From: Clostridia bacterium
GTDB taxonomy: Bacteria; Bacillota_A; Clostridia; Christensenellales; Aristaeellaceae
Length of the DNA: 16,436 nt
Reading direction: 5' to 3'
Assembly: GCA_017938645.1 (NCBI GenBank)
Contig: JAGBBE010000006.1
Coordinates: 1-16,436 of the forward strand
Shown here: piece after piece, positions 121-11,468 of the stretch
Layout of the letters: each line of letters starts with the position of its first letter
How positions within the stretch are numbered: position 1 is the stretch's first letter
Notes under the pieces: model-generated
Databases searched by the model: none
What the model was told of the DNA's origin: nothing
The model's input: the letters and a program-made list of their open reading frames with translations, nothing else
Translations under genes and position numbers: made by a program

Positions 121-195
121 TGGGTGACGGTGTTTGGACTTGCATATTCAGACTGCCGGTCGGCGTAGGGCCTCCCGGCTCGCTTGTGCGATCGG
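121..195 (+). repeat. Dispersed modular repeat, partial copy A
   Basis: This stretch shares TGGGTGACGG, then a TTCAGAC/TGCCGG-type block, a variable G+C-rich hairpin, and a right end GGCTCGCTTG followed by GATCGG with copies at 1239-1380, 7117-7244 and (reversed) 7279-7394. Only the right half is present. The left half, with the AGGGGC hairpin, is replaced by the hsdM fragment. No coding potential is visible. Confidence 0.7.
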
Positions 196-1238: not shown

Positions 1239-1380
1239 CCAGGGGCGGTGCCCCTGGACCCCGGACAAGGGCTTCGCCCTTGACCCGTGGACCGCTTCGC
1301 GGGGCTTGGCGGACGGCGTTTGGCCTTGCATGTTCAGACCGCCCCTCCACGGAGGGTGTCGGGGCTCGCTTGTTTGCTCG
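1239..1380 (+). repeat. Dispersed modular repeat, copy B (longest)
   Basis: Module order: hairpin CCAGGGGCGGTGCCCCTGG; ACCCCGGA; hairpin CAAGGGCTTCGCCCTTG; GACCGCTTCGCGGGG; a GACGGCGTTTGGCCTTGCA block; TTCAGACCGCC; hairpin CCCTCCACGGAGGG; GGCTCGCTTGTTTG. From TTCAGACC through GGCTCGC it is identical over 37 bases to the reverse complement of copy D. It sits immediately upstream of the popT promoter. No protein reading frame here resembles a real gene. Confidence 0.8.
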
Positions 1381-2658: not shown

Positions 2659-3018
2659 TCAGTAGTGTTCCCCGCTTTGGCATGCAATATCCATCGAAAC
2701 CCTGAGCGCACGGTCGATGCGGCGCAGCGTGGACGCTTCCAGCGCGCCCAGACGCCGGATCAGCCGCGTCTTTTCCAGTGTGCGCACCTGTTCGCACAGT
2801 GCGGTGGATGCACGCCACAGCCCGCCTTCGCCTTCATCGATTTCCACGTGGGTTGGAAGCGGGGGCTTCTGGGTACTGCCGGTGAGCGGCACGGCGATGA
2901 CGGTGGGTGCATGCAGGTTTCCGATATCGTTCTGGATGATGACAACCGGCCTCGTTCCGCCCTGTTCACTGCCGATCACAGGGTCCAGCGCGGCCAGATA
3001 GACGTCGCCTCTTTTCAT
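2659..3018 (-). CDS. mazF: MazF/PemK (EndoA) family endoribonuclease toxin
   Basis: A 119-residue protein of normal size for MazF/NdoA. It begins MKRGDVYLAALDPVIGSEQG and continues RPVVIIQNDIGN and TVIAVPLTGS. Arg23 in GTRPVVIIQN and Thr46 in AVPLT correspond to the catalytic Arg/Thr pair described for Bacillus subtilis EndoA. Known role: sequence-specific mRNA cleavage, normally held in check by a MazE-type antitoxin encoded upstream. Here only about 150 bases separate its start from psuG, and that space is taken by two terminators and a palindrome, leaving no room for an antitoxin gene. The start uses a modest GGAG 9 bases upstream. The downstream neighbour is yitT. The antitoxin is either elsewhere or absent. 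Confidence 0.9.
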   Translation of the reverse strand: MKRGDVYLAALDPVIGSEQGGTRPVVIIQNDIGNLHAPTVIAVPLTGSTQKPPLPTHVEIDEGEGGLWRASTALCEQVRTLEKTRLIRRLGALEASTLRRIDRALRVSMDIACQSGEHY

Positions 3019-5390: not shown

Positions 5391-7118
5391 ATGGCCTATC
5401 GTGAGAATTACGAAGCTTGGCTGAAGGATTTTGCCAACGACGAAGTTACCATGAACGATCTGCGCTCCATCGCTGGTGATGAGAAGGAAATCGAGGATCG
5501 CTTCTACCGCAACCTCAGCTTCGGCACCGCCGGTATGCGCGGCGTGCTGGGCGCCGGCATGAACCGCATGAATATCTATACCGTGCGCCGTGCCACCCAG
5601 GGCCTGGCTGACTACCTCATCGAGGACAATGCCGAGAACAAGGAACGCGGCGTGGTCATCGGCTACGACAGCCGCCGCATGTCCACCGAGTTCGCGCTGG
5701 AGACCGCTCTGGTTCTGTGCGCCAACGGCATCAAGACCTATCTGTTTGATGCGCTGCGCCCCGTGGCTCTGCTCTCCTTCGGCGTCCGTCACCTGGGCGC
5801 CAAGGCCGGCGTGGTCATCACCGCCAGCCACAACCCGCCCCAGTACAACGGCTACAAGGTATACGGCGAAGACGGCGCCCAGCTCGGACCCGAAGCAGCT
5901 TCCGCTGTGACCGGCAAGATCAACGCCCTCACCTTCACCGAAGCCAAGCTCATGACCGAGGAAGAAGCCAAGGCTTCCGGCCTGCTGAAGATCATCGGCG
6001 ACAAGGAAGTCGATGACGATTACATCGCGCTGGTCAAGACCCTGTCCATCAACCCCGAAATCGTGGCTGAGGCCGGCAAGAACCTCAAGATCGTCTACAC
6101 GCCCATCCACGGCAGCGGCAACGTGCCGGTGCGCCGCATCCTCAAGGAAATCGGCATCACCAACGTCAGCGTCGTTAAGGAACAGGAAGCGCCCGACCCC
6201 AACTTCTCCACCGTTAAGGTGCCCAACCCCGAAGATCCCGCCGCCTTCACCCTGGCCATCAAGCTGGCCAACGAAGTGGGCGCCGACGCCATCTTCGGCA
6301 CCGACCCCGACTGCGACCGTCTGGGCGTGGCCGTGCGTGAGAAGGACGGCTCCTTCAAGCTCCTCACCGGAAACCAGATCGGCTGCCTCATGCTCTACTA
6401 CATCCTCTCCAGCCTCGAAAAGCAGGGCAAGCTGCCCAAGAACGGCGCGGCTGTGAAGTCCATCGTGTCCACCGAGCTGGCCCACGCCATCTGCGACGCC
6501 TTCGGCATGTCCATCTATGACACGCTGACCGGCTTCAAGTTCATCGGCGAAAAGATCCAGCAGTTCCAGGATACCGGCGACCACACCTTCCTGTTTGGCT
6601 TCGAAGAGAGCTATGGCTTCCTCTCCAGCACCTTCGTGCGCGACAAGGACGGCGTCAACGCCTCCCTGCTCATCGCTGAGGCCGCCGCTTACTACTCCAC
6701 CCAGGGCAAGACCCTCACCGACGTCATGGCCGAGATCTTCGAGAAGTACGGCTACTATCTGGAGCATGTGGAATCCACCACCCTGCCCGGCATCGACGGC
6801 CTGAAGGTCATGGGCGAGATCATGACCCGCATCCGCAACAATCCGCCCACCGAAATCGGCGGCGTGAAGGTCAAGCGCGTGCTCGATATCCAGCGCGGCA
6901 CCGAGACCATTGTTGCCACCGGCGAAGTCAAGAAGCTTGACTATCCCGAAAGCGACGTGCTCTACTTCGCCATGGAAGGCGGCCACTTCGTCTGCGTCCG
7001 TCCCAGCGGCACCGAGCCCAAGATCAAGCTCTACGTCAACGTAAACGACAAGGAAGAAGCCAAGGCCAAGGAACTCCTTGCCACCCTGACCGCTTCCGCC
7101 CAAAACCTCCTCAAGTAA
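5391..7118 (+). CDS. Phospho-sugar mutase (phosphoglucomutase/phosphomannomutase)
   Basis: A 575-residue cytoplasmic enzyme of the alpha-D-phosphohexomutase superfamily, which interconverts hexose 1- and 6-phosphates through a phosphoserine. The motifs are all in order: TASHNPPQYNGYK with the phospho-accepting Ser146; Mg-binding DPDCDR at 305-310; sugar-specificity loop GFEESYG; phosphate-binding RPSGTEPKIKLY near the C-terminus. The length fits the long PGM2/YbbT-like class. The ATG at 5391 is chosen because AGAGGTG lies about 6-7 bases upstream. An ATG at 5361 in the same frame lacks a ribosome binding site. Strong C-ending codon bias suggests high expression. It is a single gene, divergent from psuK. 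Exact sugar preference (glucose or mannose) is not decidable here. Confidence 0.93.
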   Translation: MAYRENYEAWLKDFANDEVTMNDLRSIAGDEKEIEDRFYRNLSFGTAGMRGVLGAGMNRMNIYTVRRATQGLADYLIEDNAENKERGVVIGYDSRRMSTEFALETALVLCANGIKTYLFDALRPVALLSFGVRHLGAKAGVVITASHNPPQYNGYKVYGEDGAQLGPEAASAVTGKINALTFTEAKLMTEEEAKASGLLKIIGDKEVDDDYIALVKTLSINPEIVAEAGKNLKIVYTPIHGSGNVPVRRILKEIGITNVSVVKEQEAPDPNFSTVKVPNPEDPAAFTLAIKLANEVGADAIFGTDPDCDRLGVAVREKDGSFKLLTGNQIGCLMLYYILSSLEKQGKLPKNGAAVKSIVSTELAHAICDAFGMSIYDTLTGFKFIGEKIQQFQDTGDHTFLFGFEESYGFLSSTFVRDKDGVNASLLIAEAAAYYSTQGKTLTDVMAEIFEKYGYYLEHVESTTLPGIDGLKVMGEIMTRIRNNPPTEIGGVKVKRVLDIQRGTETIVATGEVKKLDYPESDVLYFAMEGGHFVCVRPSGTEPKIKLYVNVNDKEEAKAKELLATLTASAQNLLK

Positions 7119-7244
7119 GGGGCTGAGCCCCTTAACCCCGGACTGCGCGCCCATAGGGCGCGCAGGGCTTGGGTGACGGAGTTTCAAATTGTATAATCAG
7201 ACCGCCGGGGCACATACAGGTGCCCCGGCTCGCTTGTTTGATCG
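7117..7244 (+). repeat. Dispersed modular repeat, copy C
   Basis: The repeat starts inside the mutase stop codon with hairpin AAGGGGCTGAGCCCCTT, then ACCCCGGAC, hairpin TGCGCGCCCATAGGGCGCGCA, GGGCTTGGGTGACGG, an AATCAGACCGCC block, hairpin CCGGGGCAC..GTGCCCCGG and right end GGCTCGCTTGTTTGATCG. The module order matches copy B, but both internal hairpins differ in sequence while remaining self-complementary. The leading hairpin may also help end mutase transcription, although no T-run follows. Confidence 0.8.
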
Positions 7245-7276
7245 GGTCATATGTGAAAATCGGGTCATATGTGAAA
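7241..7276 (+). repeat. Perfect 18-bp tandem duplication
   Basis: ATCGGGTCATATGTGAAA occurs twice in direct succession (7241-7258 and 7259-7276). It forms the spacer between the oppositely oriented repeat copies C and D. Each unit holds a CATATG palindrome. Confidence 0.9.
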
Positions 7277-7278
7277 AA

Positions 7279-7394
7279 CGATCAAATATGCGAGCCCCGA
7301 CACCCTCCGTGGAGGGGCGGTCTGAAGAGGCAAGGCCAAACTCCGGCCACTACCCCCCGCGAAGCGGTCCGGGGTCCAGGGGCTCAGCCCCTGG
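7279..7394 (-). repeat. Dispersed modular repeat, copy D (reverse orientation)
   Basis: The reverse complement reads hairpin CCAGGGGCTGAGCCCCTGG, ACCCCGGACCGCTTCGCGGG, GGAGTTTGGCCTTGC, TTCAGACCGCC, hairpin CCCTCCACGGAGGG, GGGGCTCGC, TTTGATCG. It lacks the second hairpin module of copy B. Together with copy C and the tandem duplication it fills the roughly 330-base gene-free stretch before the next operon. Its AGGGGC hairpin end lies next to that operon's promoter region. Confidence 0.8.
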
Positions 7395-7452: not shown

Positions 7453-7902
7453 ATGAAGAATGCAAATGTGCTCGTGCTGGTGATTGTGTTTGCGCTGATT
7501 GTGCTGGTGGCTGGCGCGGGACTGATTGTTTCTGCTGTGCAGCCAAAGGATGCGCCGCCGGTCGTGAGCGAACGGGTGTCCATCACTCCAAACATTCCGG
7601 AAAAGACGGATGATACGCAGGCTTATCTGCGCGTGCAGGTGGGCGACGAAATATGGCCGTTGATTCCTCTGACGGATGGCGGCGAGTACACCGTGACCCA
7701 GTCTGACACCGGCGCGAGGAATGTGATTCGCACCACGGTCGAGAGCGCTGTGATGCATTTTTCCACCTGCGACAATCAGAACTGCGTGCAGCAGGGCGAG
7801 GTTGCGCTCAGCAACCGCGAGCTTCGCGTCATGGGCAATCTCATCGTGTGTCTGCCCAACGAGGTTGTGCTGGAACTGCTGGAACCCGGGGAGGTAAAGT
7901 GA
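7453..7902 (+). CDS. NusG domain II-containing small membrane-anchored protein
   Basis: A 149-residue protein. Residues about 5-29 are a single hydrophobic anchor (NVLVLVIVFALIVLVAGAGL), followed by a proline-rich linker and an extracytoplasmic beta domain from about residue 55. The C-terminal half carries STCDNQNCVQQGEV and NLIVCLPNEVVLEL, the Cys-containing pattern of stand-alone NusG_II proteins common in Clostridia. Their function is not established. They often sit beside Gx transporter genes and FMN-transferase or Rnf-related genes, which suggests a link to electron transport or quinone/isoprenoid metabolism (inference). AAAGGAGG lies 8 bases before the ATG. It is the first gene of the operon, and the stop codon is one base from the next start. 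Confidence 0.85.
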   Translation: MKNANVLVLVIVFALIVLVAGAGLIVSAVQPKDAPPVVSERVSITPNIPEKTDDTQAYLRVQVGDEIWPLIPLTDGGEYTVTQSDTGARNVIRTTVESAVMHFSTCDNQNCVQQGEVALSNRELRVMGNLIVCLPNEVVLELLEPGEVK

Positions 7903-11397: not shown

Positions 11398-11419
11398 CGC
11401 AGTTTTCTTCGGGGAGAGC

Positions 11420-11461
11420 GCGAGAGGGGATCTTCTTTTTCAAAAGAAGATCCCCTCTCGC
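11420..11461. terminator. Strong bidirectional terminator between convergent genes
   Basis: A perfect 20-bp inverted repeat, GCGAGAGGGGATCTTCTTTT (11420-11439) and its complement (11442-11461), with a 2-nt gap. In practice this is a long stem with a 4-base loop, and ATTTTCC follows on the plus strand. It separates the acyltransferase (ends 11397) from the convergent metallophosphoesterase (ends 11469). Confidence 0.85.
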
Positions 11462-11468
11462 ATTTTCC

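Follow-up and report, generated by a model that had tools for sequence, protein, structure and literature searches.

The window analysed here, the whole stretch of 16,436 nucleotides, carries several intergenic copies of a modular repeat whose hairpins change in sequence from copy to copy while their arms continue to pair. This raises the question of what keeps the arms matched, and of whether the repeat is an RNA structure, a folded DNA structure or the product of a mutational process. A first-pass annotation of the window had favoured selection on an RNA or cruciform structure rather than simple copying.

The presence of four copies (A to D), their positions and their common module order were confirmed by sequence comparison and by a covariance model (R2), which scored A at 60.2, B at 64, C at 58.9 and D at 54.5 bits; all four are among the 61 rows on which R2 was trained. 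Copy A (121..194, plus strand) had been described as partial, and is specifically a 5'-truncated copy without hairpins 1 and 2. Its core occupies positions 150-186, and its third hairpin (hp3) forms a stem-loop of the GCCGG-TC-GGC/GCC-TC-CCGGC type at 155-179. Copy B (1239..1380, plus strand) is a whole element between two minus-strand genes, flanked by the start of the one, which encodes a PF04018 membrane protein, and by the end of the other, of the YitT family. It is comprised of hairpin 1 (CCAGGGGC..GCCCCTGG, 1239..1257), an extra hairpin (CAAGGGC..GCCCTTG, 1266..1282) that is not found in C or D, hairpin 2 (CCGC..GCGG, 1292..1302) with no T-run behind it, and a core (AGACCGCC..GGCTCGCTTG, 1336..1372) whose hp3 stem-loop (1341-1365) contains a TC/TC internal loop; all of these are on the plus strand.

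Copy C (7116..7244, plus strand) also is a whole element. It lies directly 3' of a phosphosugar mutase gene, and the stop codon of that gene, TAA, is part of the stem of hairpin 1 (TAAGGGGC..GCCCCTTA, 7116..7134). Hairpin 2 of this copy (CTGCGCGCCC..GGGCGCGCAG, 7143..7165) has no T-run behind it, and the core (7199..7236) holds an hp3 at 7204-7229 with a 10-bp stem, GCCGGGGCAC/GTGCCCCGGC, which is the same hp3 as in one copy from a related genome, G115. These features of C are on the plus strand. Copy D (7279..7394, minus strand) is inverted and lies tail-to-tail with C. Its hairpin 1 (CCAGGGGC..GCCCCTGG, 7376..7394) faces the start of the gene at 7453 and is followed directly by the CCGC..GCGG hairpin 2 (7357..7367). 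The D core (AGACCGCC..GGCTCGCATA, 7287..7323) carries an hp3 (7294-7318) with a TC/TC internal loop, identical to that of B; these too are minus-strand features. Over 118 nt, B and D show 84% complementarity.

Some details of the original description required revision. The CCGC/GCGG hairpin assigned to both B and D is present in both, whereas the AAGGGC/GCCCTT hairpin assigned to the same two copies occurs in B only, and the tail of D is GGCTCGCATATTTGATCG, not GGCTCGCTTG. The last hairpin of B and D had been paired as CCCTCC/GGAGGG. The family alignment instead supports GCCCC-TC-CAC/GTG-TC-GGGGC, in which the TC/TC internal loop is one common to other stems of the family; when B is folded by energy on its own, the preferred pairing resembles the one originally proposed. 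Folding of single copies was uneven, with z-scores of -5.89 (C), -2.15 (D), -0.78 (B) and -0.24 (A).

Other features of the window also were noted. At 1-111 on the minus strand there is a fragment resembling an N-6 DNA methylase (PF02384, scoring 20.7 bits where the cut-off is 20.4), possibly HsdM, which stops on its N-terminal side exactly where the truncated copy A starts; this junction may have arisen by insertion, as a scar of recombination or as a chimera at the contig end. The tails of C and D are separated by a stretch (7244-7277) that holds a direct repeat, CGGGTCATATGTGAAAA, in two copies. The intergenic sequence at 1413-1674 matches G001 C154:56652-56911 at 76%, beside a CTACTTTTTC/GAAAAAGTAG palindrome, and possibly is a second dispersed repeat. 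A strong 27-nt inverted repeat at 11413-11468 (89% complementary), located between two convergent genes, is probably a bidirectional terminator. The minus strand at 2659-3018 encodes a MazF/PemK-like toxin (PF02452).

The phosphosugar mutase gene of the window is 91% identical in DNA sequence to that of G116 and 90% identical to that of G001, a related MAG of 3.0 Mb. The genus of these relatives comprises 17 species, including G005 (Candidatus Limiplasma stercoravium), and is probably Limiplasma. R2 was used to score the best candidates from each genome (150 in the genus, 50 in the family and 17 in the order), and the resulting counts may be low. At least 96 modules were found in G001, at least 70 in G116 and at least 24 in a third species, with 12, 10, 5, 3 and 2 in five others, giving 8 of the 17 species. 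Three further species had one marginal match each, bringing those with matches to 11 of 17, and the remaining six had no R2 match among the best 150 candidates per genome. The repeat therefore is not confined to the copies in the window.

The exact core motif was absent from 397 other genomes sampled from the phylum, compared with 62 occurrences in G001, and the hairpin 1 pattern was found once each in three of those 397. Among 100 genomes of the family, R2 matches were obtained only in G001 and G099 (best 50 candidates per genome), and among 297 genomes of the order only in G001 (best 17); since only the best candidates were scored, absence at the family and order levels is weak evidence. The exact pattern with the window's own tail had no match in viral or genome contigs, and this tail was not seen among the printed copies of the relatives. 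Phage and plasmid records gave no match. Two viral-contig matches of a generalised core lacked the stem by eye, scored 16.6 and 12.9 bits with R2, and were counted as chance. An Rfam search of the window returned 13 matches at E <= 10, none of which reached the gathering score of its family. Copying was evident, in that 17 modules carry one and the same hp3 sequence and eight hp3 sequences are each present in two genomes. The element is multi-copy and patchily spread within the genus.

Across the family, the order of modules from 5' to 3' is hairpin 1, ACCC, hairpin 2, often a T-rich stretch, GTTTG...TGCA, the core AGACC-GCC[hp3]GGC-TCGCTTG, and a tail that differs between species. Hairpin 1 (AGGGGC..GCCCCT) often begins at or overlaps a stop codon. 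It also exists without hp3: the pattern was found in 12 of the 17 species of the genus, and G004 has 22 hairpin 1 copies and no hp3 match (R2, best 150 candidates). There were 52 distinct hairpin 2 sequences among 62 G001 copies, the pairing of which is not separate evidence because the script sought paired stems. Hairpin 2 was followed by at least five T in the next 8 nt in G001 (43/62), G116 (17/39), G115 (11/14) and G099 (1/1); by the same measure there was no T-run in G003 (0/2), G117 (0/9), G011 (0/5) or the window (0/3). Hairpins 1 and 2 form a gene-end cassette that in three species often is shaped like an intrinsic terminator with a T tail.

hp3 is a 10-bp hairpin between the constant feet AGACC and TCGCTTG (consensus of G001, G116, G115 and G117), and the feet are kept although they are unpaired. 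A second core is present in 22 of the 66 G001 elements. Tandem cores lie 37 nt apart in 21 of 23 pairs, and the linker is conserved; the core grouping joined same-strand cores only, so that double-core elements are direct by construction. Inverted neighbouring elements were seen in the window (C and D) and at L230. Five G011 elements are arranged in tandem, head-to-tail and approximately 135 nt apart (L276:1554-2164), and this array sits behind a gene whose G001 orthologue (L136) has a single element.

Pairing within hp3 was assessed using an alignment (A2) of 61 motif-chosen rows, from which a 62nd row (L149:1053), lying inside a gene and without a stem, was left out. Of the 610 cells, 89.8% pair. 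Double-change cells numbered 82, compared with 19.1 +/- 3.4 in shuffled alignments (0/500 as high), and the covariation score was 0.374, compared with 0.089 when shuffled (0/500) and 0.07-0.13 for slid structures. Two of the five measures failed to exceed the shuffles, namely, the count of pairs with at least one two-sided change (6 versus 5.2; 197/500 as high) and the number of further pair types (12 versus 13.7; 470/500 as high). With no pairing filter applied, at least 7 of the 10 pairs were Watson-Crick in 153 of 154 motif-selected hp3 matches. Unfiltered sets gave an excess of double changes in sources other than G001 (32 unique hp3; 65 double-change cells versus 14.7 +/- 2.9, 0/1000) and in G116 alone (17 unique hp3; 36 versus 11.7 +/- 2.3, 0/1000). 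A minimum spanning tree of 37 distinct stems, which had passed an outer-six pairing filter (at least 5/6) and probably include one coding core, contained 38-40 two-sided and 14-16 one-sided pair changes, depending on how ties were handled.

The sample bears on how these counts are to be read. A motif and length rule reduced 172 filtered cores to 165, the filter having dropped the broken core of L145. Two of the 165 are probably coding: L251-640, which was removed from the position counts, and L120-1314, which is still in the context, pair-type and tree counts. The G001 loci were recovered in part through their similarity to C and other loci mainly by R2, the score of which includes the stem, so the sample leans somewhat to paired copies. 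Double-change cells are not independent events, because related rows share history, and since hp3 types are common to several sites, the independent paired changes are fewer than the cell counts suggest. The L145 core (L145:278-346, G001), one of the 154 unfiltered matches, has a broken stem and combines the 5' arm of one hp3 type with the 3' arm of another; this could reflect recombination between types or an assembly error.

Many copies were found in the relatives rather than only those of the window, and the hp3 stems covary against shuffled controls in a larger alignment, which supports a constraint at the level of structure. This part of the first-pass interpretation stood. Its contrast with simple copying did not, since the element also is copied and dispersed. 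The inner letters of hp3 are free to vary provided that the pairing or the TC/TC loop is kept.

In order to place the elements relative to genes, we used a script of our own that calls genes from codon usage, with 13 genes as the training set. It placed a gene upstream of 133 of the 141 elements; in 108 of these cases the gene is on the same strand and the element follows its 3' end, and in the other 25 the element lies behind the 5' end of a divergent gene. The 141 regions comprised 44 tandem same-sense, 17 tandem antisense, 42 convergent and 1 divergent, together with 37 in which one neighbour was missing. Counting one element per upstream gene edge gave 40, 17, 42 and 1, respectively, and an earlier run with one more, doubtful element gave 2 divergent. 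A count based on the longest ORF (80 "opposite" and 54 "same" upstream) was rejected because it frequently took a frame on the antisense strand, as at L111, where an in-frame TAA precedes the element. The tandem same-sense bias is mainly from G001 (19 same-sense versus 4 antisense, compared with 13 versus 10 in G116), and five of the 44 same-sense tandem elements belong to the one G011 array. The usual position of the element is behind a stop codon, and it is almost never found between divergent genes.

Downstream of the phosphosugar mutase gene, the window, G001 and G116 each carry the element, and by eye all three hairpins differ in sequence or loop. Also by eye, an ordinary terminator-like hairpin is found there instead in G115, G114, G118 and G005, and palindromes of the hairpin 1/2 kind without hp3 are found in G004, G099 and G032. 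No clean empty/filled pair with exact borders or a target duplication was obtained, and the gene order downstream of the mutase varies between species. A comparison of the 66 G001 elements with the 40 from G116 found three upstream genes in common on the same side, where a rough reckoning would expect about one, and in at least two further intergenic regions the elements are oppositely oriented (L148/L228 and L220/L246); most sampled sites thus are not common to both genomes. At a site common to both G001 and G011 (L136 and L276), the arms of hairpin 2 hardly differ but hp3 is of another type, which suggests that hp3 is exchangeable as a block. Flanking proteins gave 56 same-genome matches; only 11 of these linked different loci, and in ten of the 11 the identity was 24-51%. 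L215 and L217 (G001; C161 start and C168 end) have elements at contig ends followed by 98% identical protein stretches, from either a duplication or one region assembled twice.

We give about an even chance to the reading that this is a genus-restricted, multi-copy, non-autonomous REP/BIME-like element whose folded hp3 DNA is read by a trans-acting protein. Such a putative protein would recognise the DNA hairpin via its feet and shape and would spread or maintain the copies. The built-in terminator would make insertion behind a gene harmless, and template switching probably would help to keep the arms matched. A different account, which we regard as unlikely, is that the whole unit is a 3' UTR, in which hairpin 1 and the terminator protect the mRNA end, hp3 is a protein-binding or processing stem, and the compensation serves RNA folding. 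The bias to gene 3' ends (108/133), the T-tailed hairpin 2 of G001, G116 and G115, and the 52 hairpin 2 sequences in 62 G001 copies are all consistent with an RNA element. So are the pairs in the hairpin 1 and 2 stems, where 15 G.T cells compare with 3 A.C cells (not de-duplicated); this fits RNA terminators, which hairpins 1 and 2 look more like. hp3 shows the opposite: in 60 unique hp3 sequences, with the TC/TC loop excluded, the 574 cells comprised 555 Watson-Crick, 8 A.C, 2 G.T and 9 others. An RNA helix is expected to tolerate G.U above A.C, so these pair types, which are small in number and include some A.C rows that are close kin, lean toward hp3 being a DNA hairpin rather than RNA. Moreover, hp3 lies behind the T-tailed hairpin 2 and thus in many copies probably is outside the transcript. 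The divergent gene start upstream of 25 of the 133 elements, the lack of an Rfam match above the gathering score in the window and the patchy copy numbers, which resemble dispersal, also argue against an RNA element.

It also seems unlikely to us that mutation rather than selection accounts for the stems, with template-switch correction of quasi-palindromes copying arm onto arm so that stems remain matched while their letters drift. Replication template switching is a mutational mechanism that yields matched double changes and has been published for RNA hairpins (PMC8794818). Because double changes are possible in one step, it is a good partner mechanism for the REP/BIME-like reading, and it could also by itself produce matched arms. 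The excess of two-sided over one-sided changes, C-G to G-C swaps included, and the rarity of G.T intermediates are as it predicts. Loop inversion, considered as a mark of template switching, gave a weak signal in hairpin 2 only: pairs with inverse loops and identical inner arms numbered six in hairpin 2 (controls, 3 and 3), two in hairpin 1 (controls, 2 and 1) and zero in hp3. However, the TC/TC 2x2 internal loop, which correction should erase, is kept in 13 of the 60 unique hp3 while the neighbouring pairs on both sides change, and occurs with all other pairs intact in 58 of 164 modules; this argues for recognition of shape and against template switching as the sole cause. The conservation of the unpaired feet also counts against a purely mutational account. 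In E. coli, REP hairpins likewise have a conserved mismatch bulge, which is described as needed by their transposase (PMC8266576). A duplex DNA dyad for a sequence-reading protein, such as a supercoiling or nucleoid site, would account for a palindromic hp3 with constant flanking feet, but a sequence-reading dimer would fix the letters of the arms, and the 37 distinct stems make this very improbable. We find it scarcely credible that hp3 is an attC-kind folded single-strand recombination site read by a tyrosine recombinase: constant feet with a free stem also are an attC trait, but the feet here form no attC box pair, and the elements are scattered, with few flanking-protein matches between loci. 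Likewise unlikely in our view, and offered tentatively, is the proposal that Limiplasma-like gut Clostridia harbour a mobile or recombining element of a new class, for which a putative enzyme that is neither a Y1 transposase nor an integron integrase would read the folded DNA strand by its feet and shape (a perfect 10-bp stem or the TC/TC loop), and the element's own terminator would let it settle behind genes.

The REP/BIME-like reading calls for a mover. PF01797 was found in 7 of the 17 species of the genus, and Y1_Tnp gave no match at E <= 1e-5 in G116, G115, G117 or G011, four of the five element-richest species. A Y1 transposase was rejected as the mover, as there was no correlation with element number across the 17 species, and R2 found no match in 12 loci around the Y1 matches (L278-L289). 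A RAYT-like gene was present in one of the 17 species, G001 (L288:665-1210; NF047646, 73 bits against a cut-off of 80), with no R2 match within its 2.7-kb locus. Behind this gene are GGGCGCAC/GTGCGCCC hairpins, which are unlike hp3. The MAGs are incomplete, and absence of a transposase therefore is weak evidence.

The family provides a natural experiment on hairpin evolution, with 37 distinct stems in one genus, many of them a single matched pair apart. Its stems have almost no wobble pairs, and one subtype keeps a mismatch. The family could serve to separate selection on folded DNA from template-switch correction. These findings add uncultured gut Clostridia to the bacteria with REP-like repeats that are probably recognised by shape, here bearing other tags and lacking an obvious transposase; the family also offers a route to the missing enzyme.

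In the open-access literature, at the level of titles and abstracts, we found no description of the element or name for the family. With regard to MITE features, the consensus has no common terminal inverted repeat, and no exact empty site was recovered. The BOX element of Streptococcus pneumoniae, as described in PMC3049150, is similarly intergenic and modular; it folds into stem-loops, and its inner module is optional and may be repeated. Its mobilisation is argued there from IS-like terminal inverted repeats, unlike the consensus here, and the two are likened by description only. Intrinsic terminators resemble hairpin 2 and its T-run, which in many copies from G001, G115 and G116 are found a short way after a stop codon. 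Unlike a terminator, however, the element continues with hp3 and its constant feet, and hairpin 2 in the window, G117 and G011 has no T-run. Integron attC sites are recognised as a folded strand and have constant feet, RYYYAAC/GTTRRRY boxes and a free stem sequence; inspected by eye in the consensus, the AGACC/TCGCTTG feet do not give such a RYYYAAC/GTTRRRY pair.

The closest likeness is to REP and BIME. REP tags are GTAG or CGTC tetranucleotides at the foot of the stem, GTAG REPs have subfamilies with alternative complementary stems, and CGTC REPs likewise have no dedicated transposase (PMC3733652). The foot here, AGACC/TCGCTTG in the consensus of G001, G116, G115 and G117, is neither GTAG nor CGTC, and no association with a RAYT/Y1 gene was seen, which the gaps in the MAGs make weak evidence; having failed on both tag and transposase, the element is not filed as a REP. 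It also differs in being joined to a two-hairpin gene-end cassette, in having tandem cores of the same orientation within an element (the grouping joined same-strand cores only), and in an hp3 nearly without the G.T pairing often seen among the REPs of PMC3733652. What it has in common with REP/BIME, as these are described in PMC8266576 and PMC3733652, is a high-copy, mostly extragenic palindrome (at least 96 modules in G001 and at least 70 in G116) with alternative complementary stems above a constant foot tag, stems that are perfect in some types and retain a bulge in others, and a mosaic of palindromic units with fixed linkers (two cores in 22/66 elements, 37-nt gap in 21/23 pairs). Among the systems compared, the element works most like REP/BIME palindromes.
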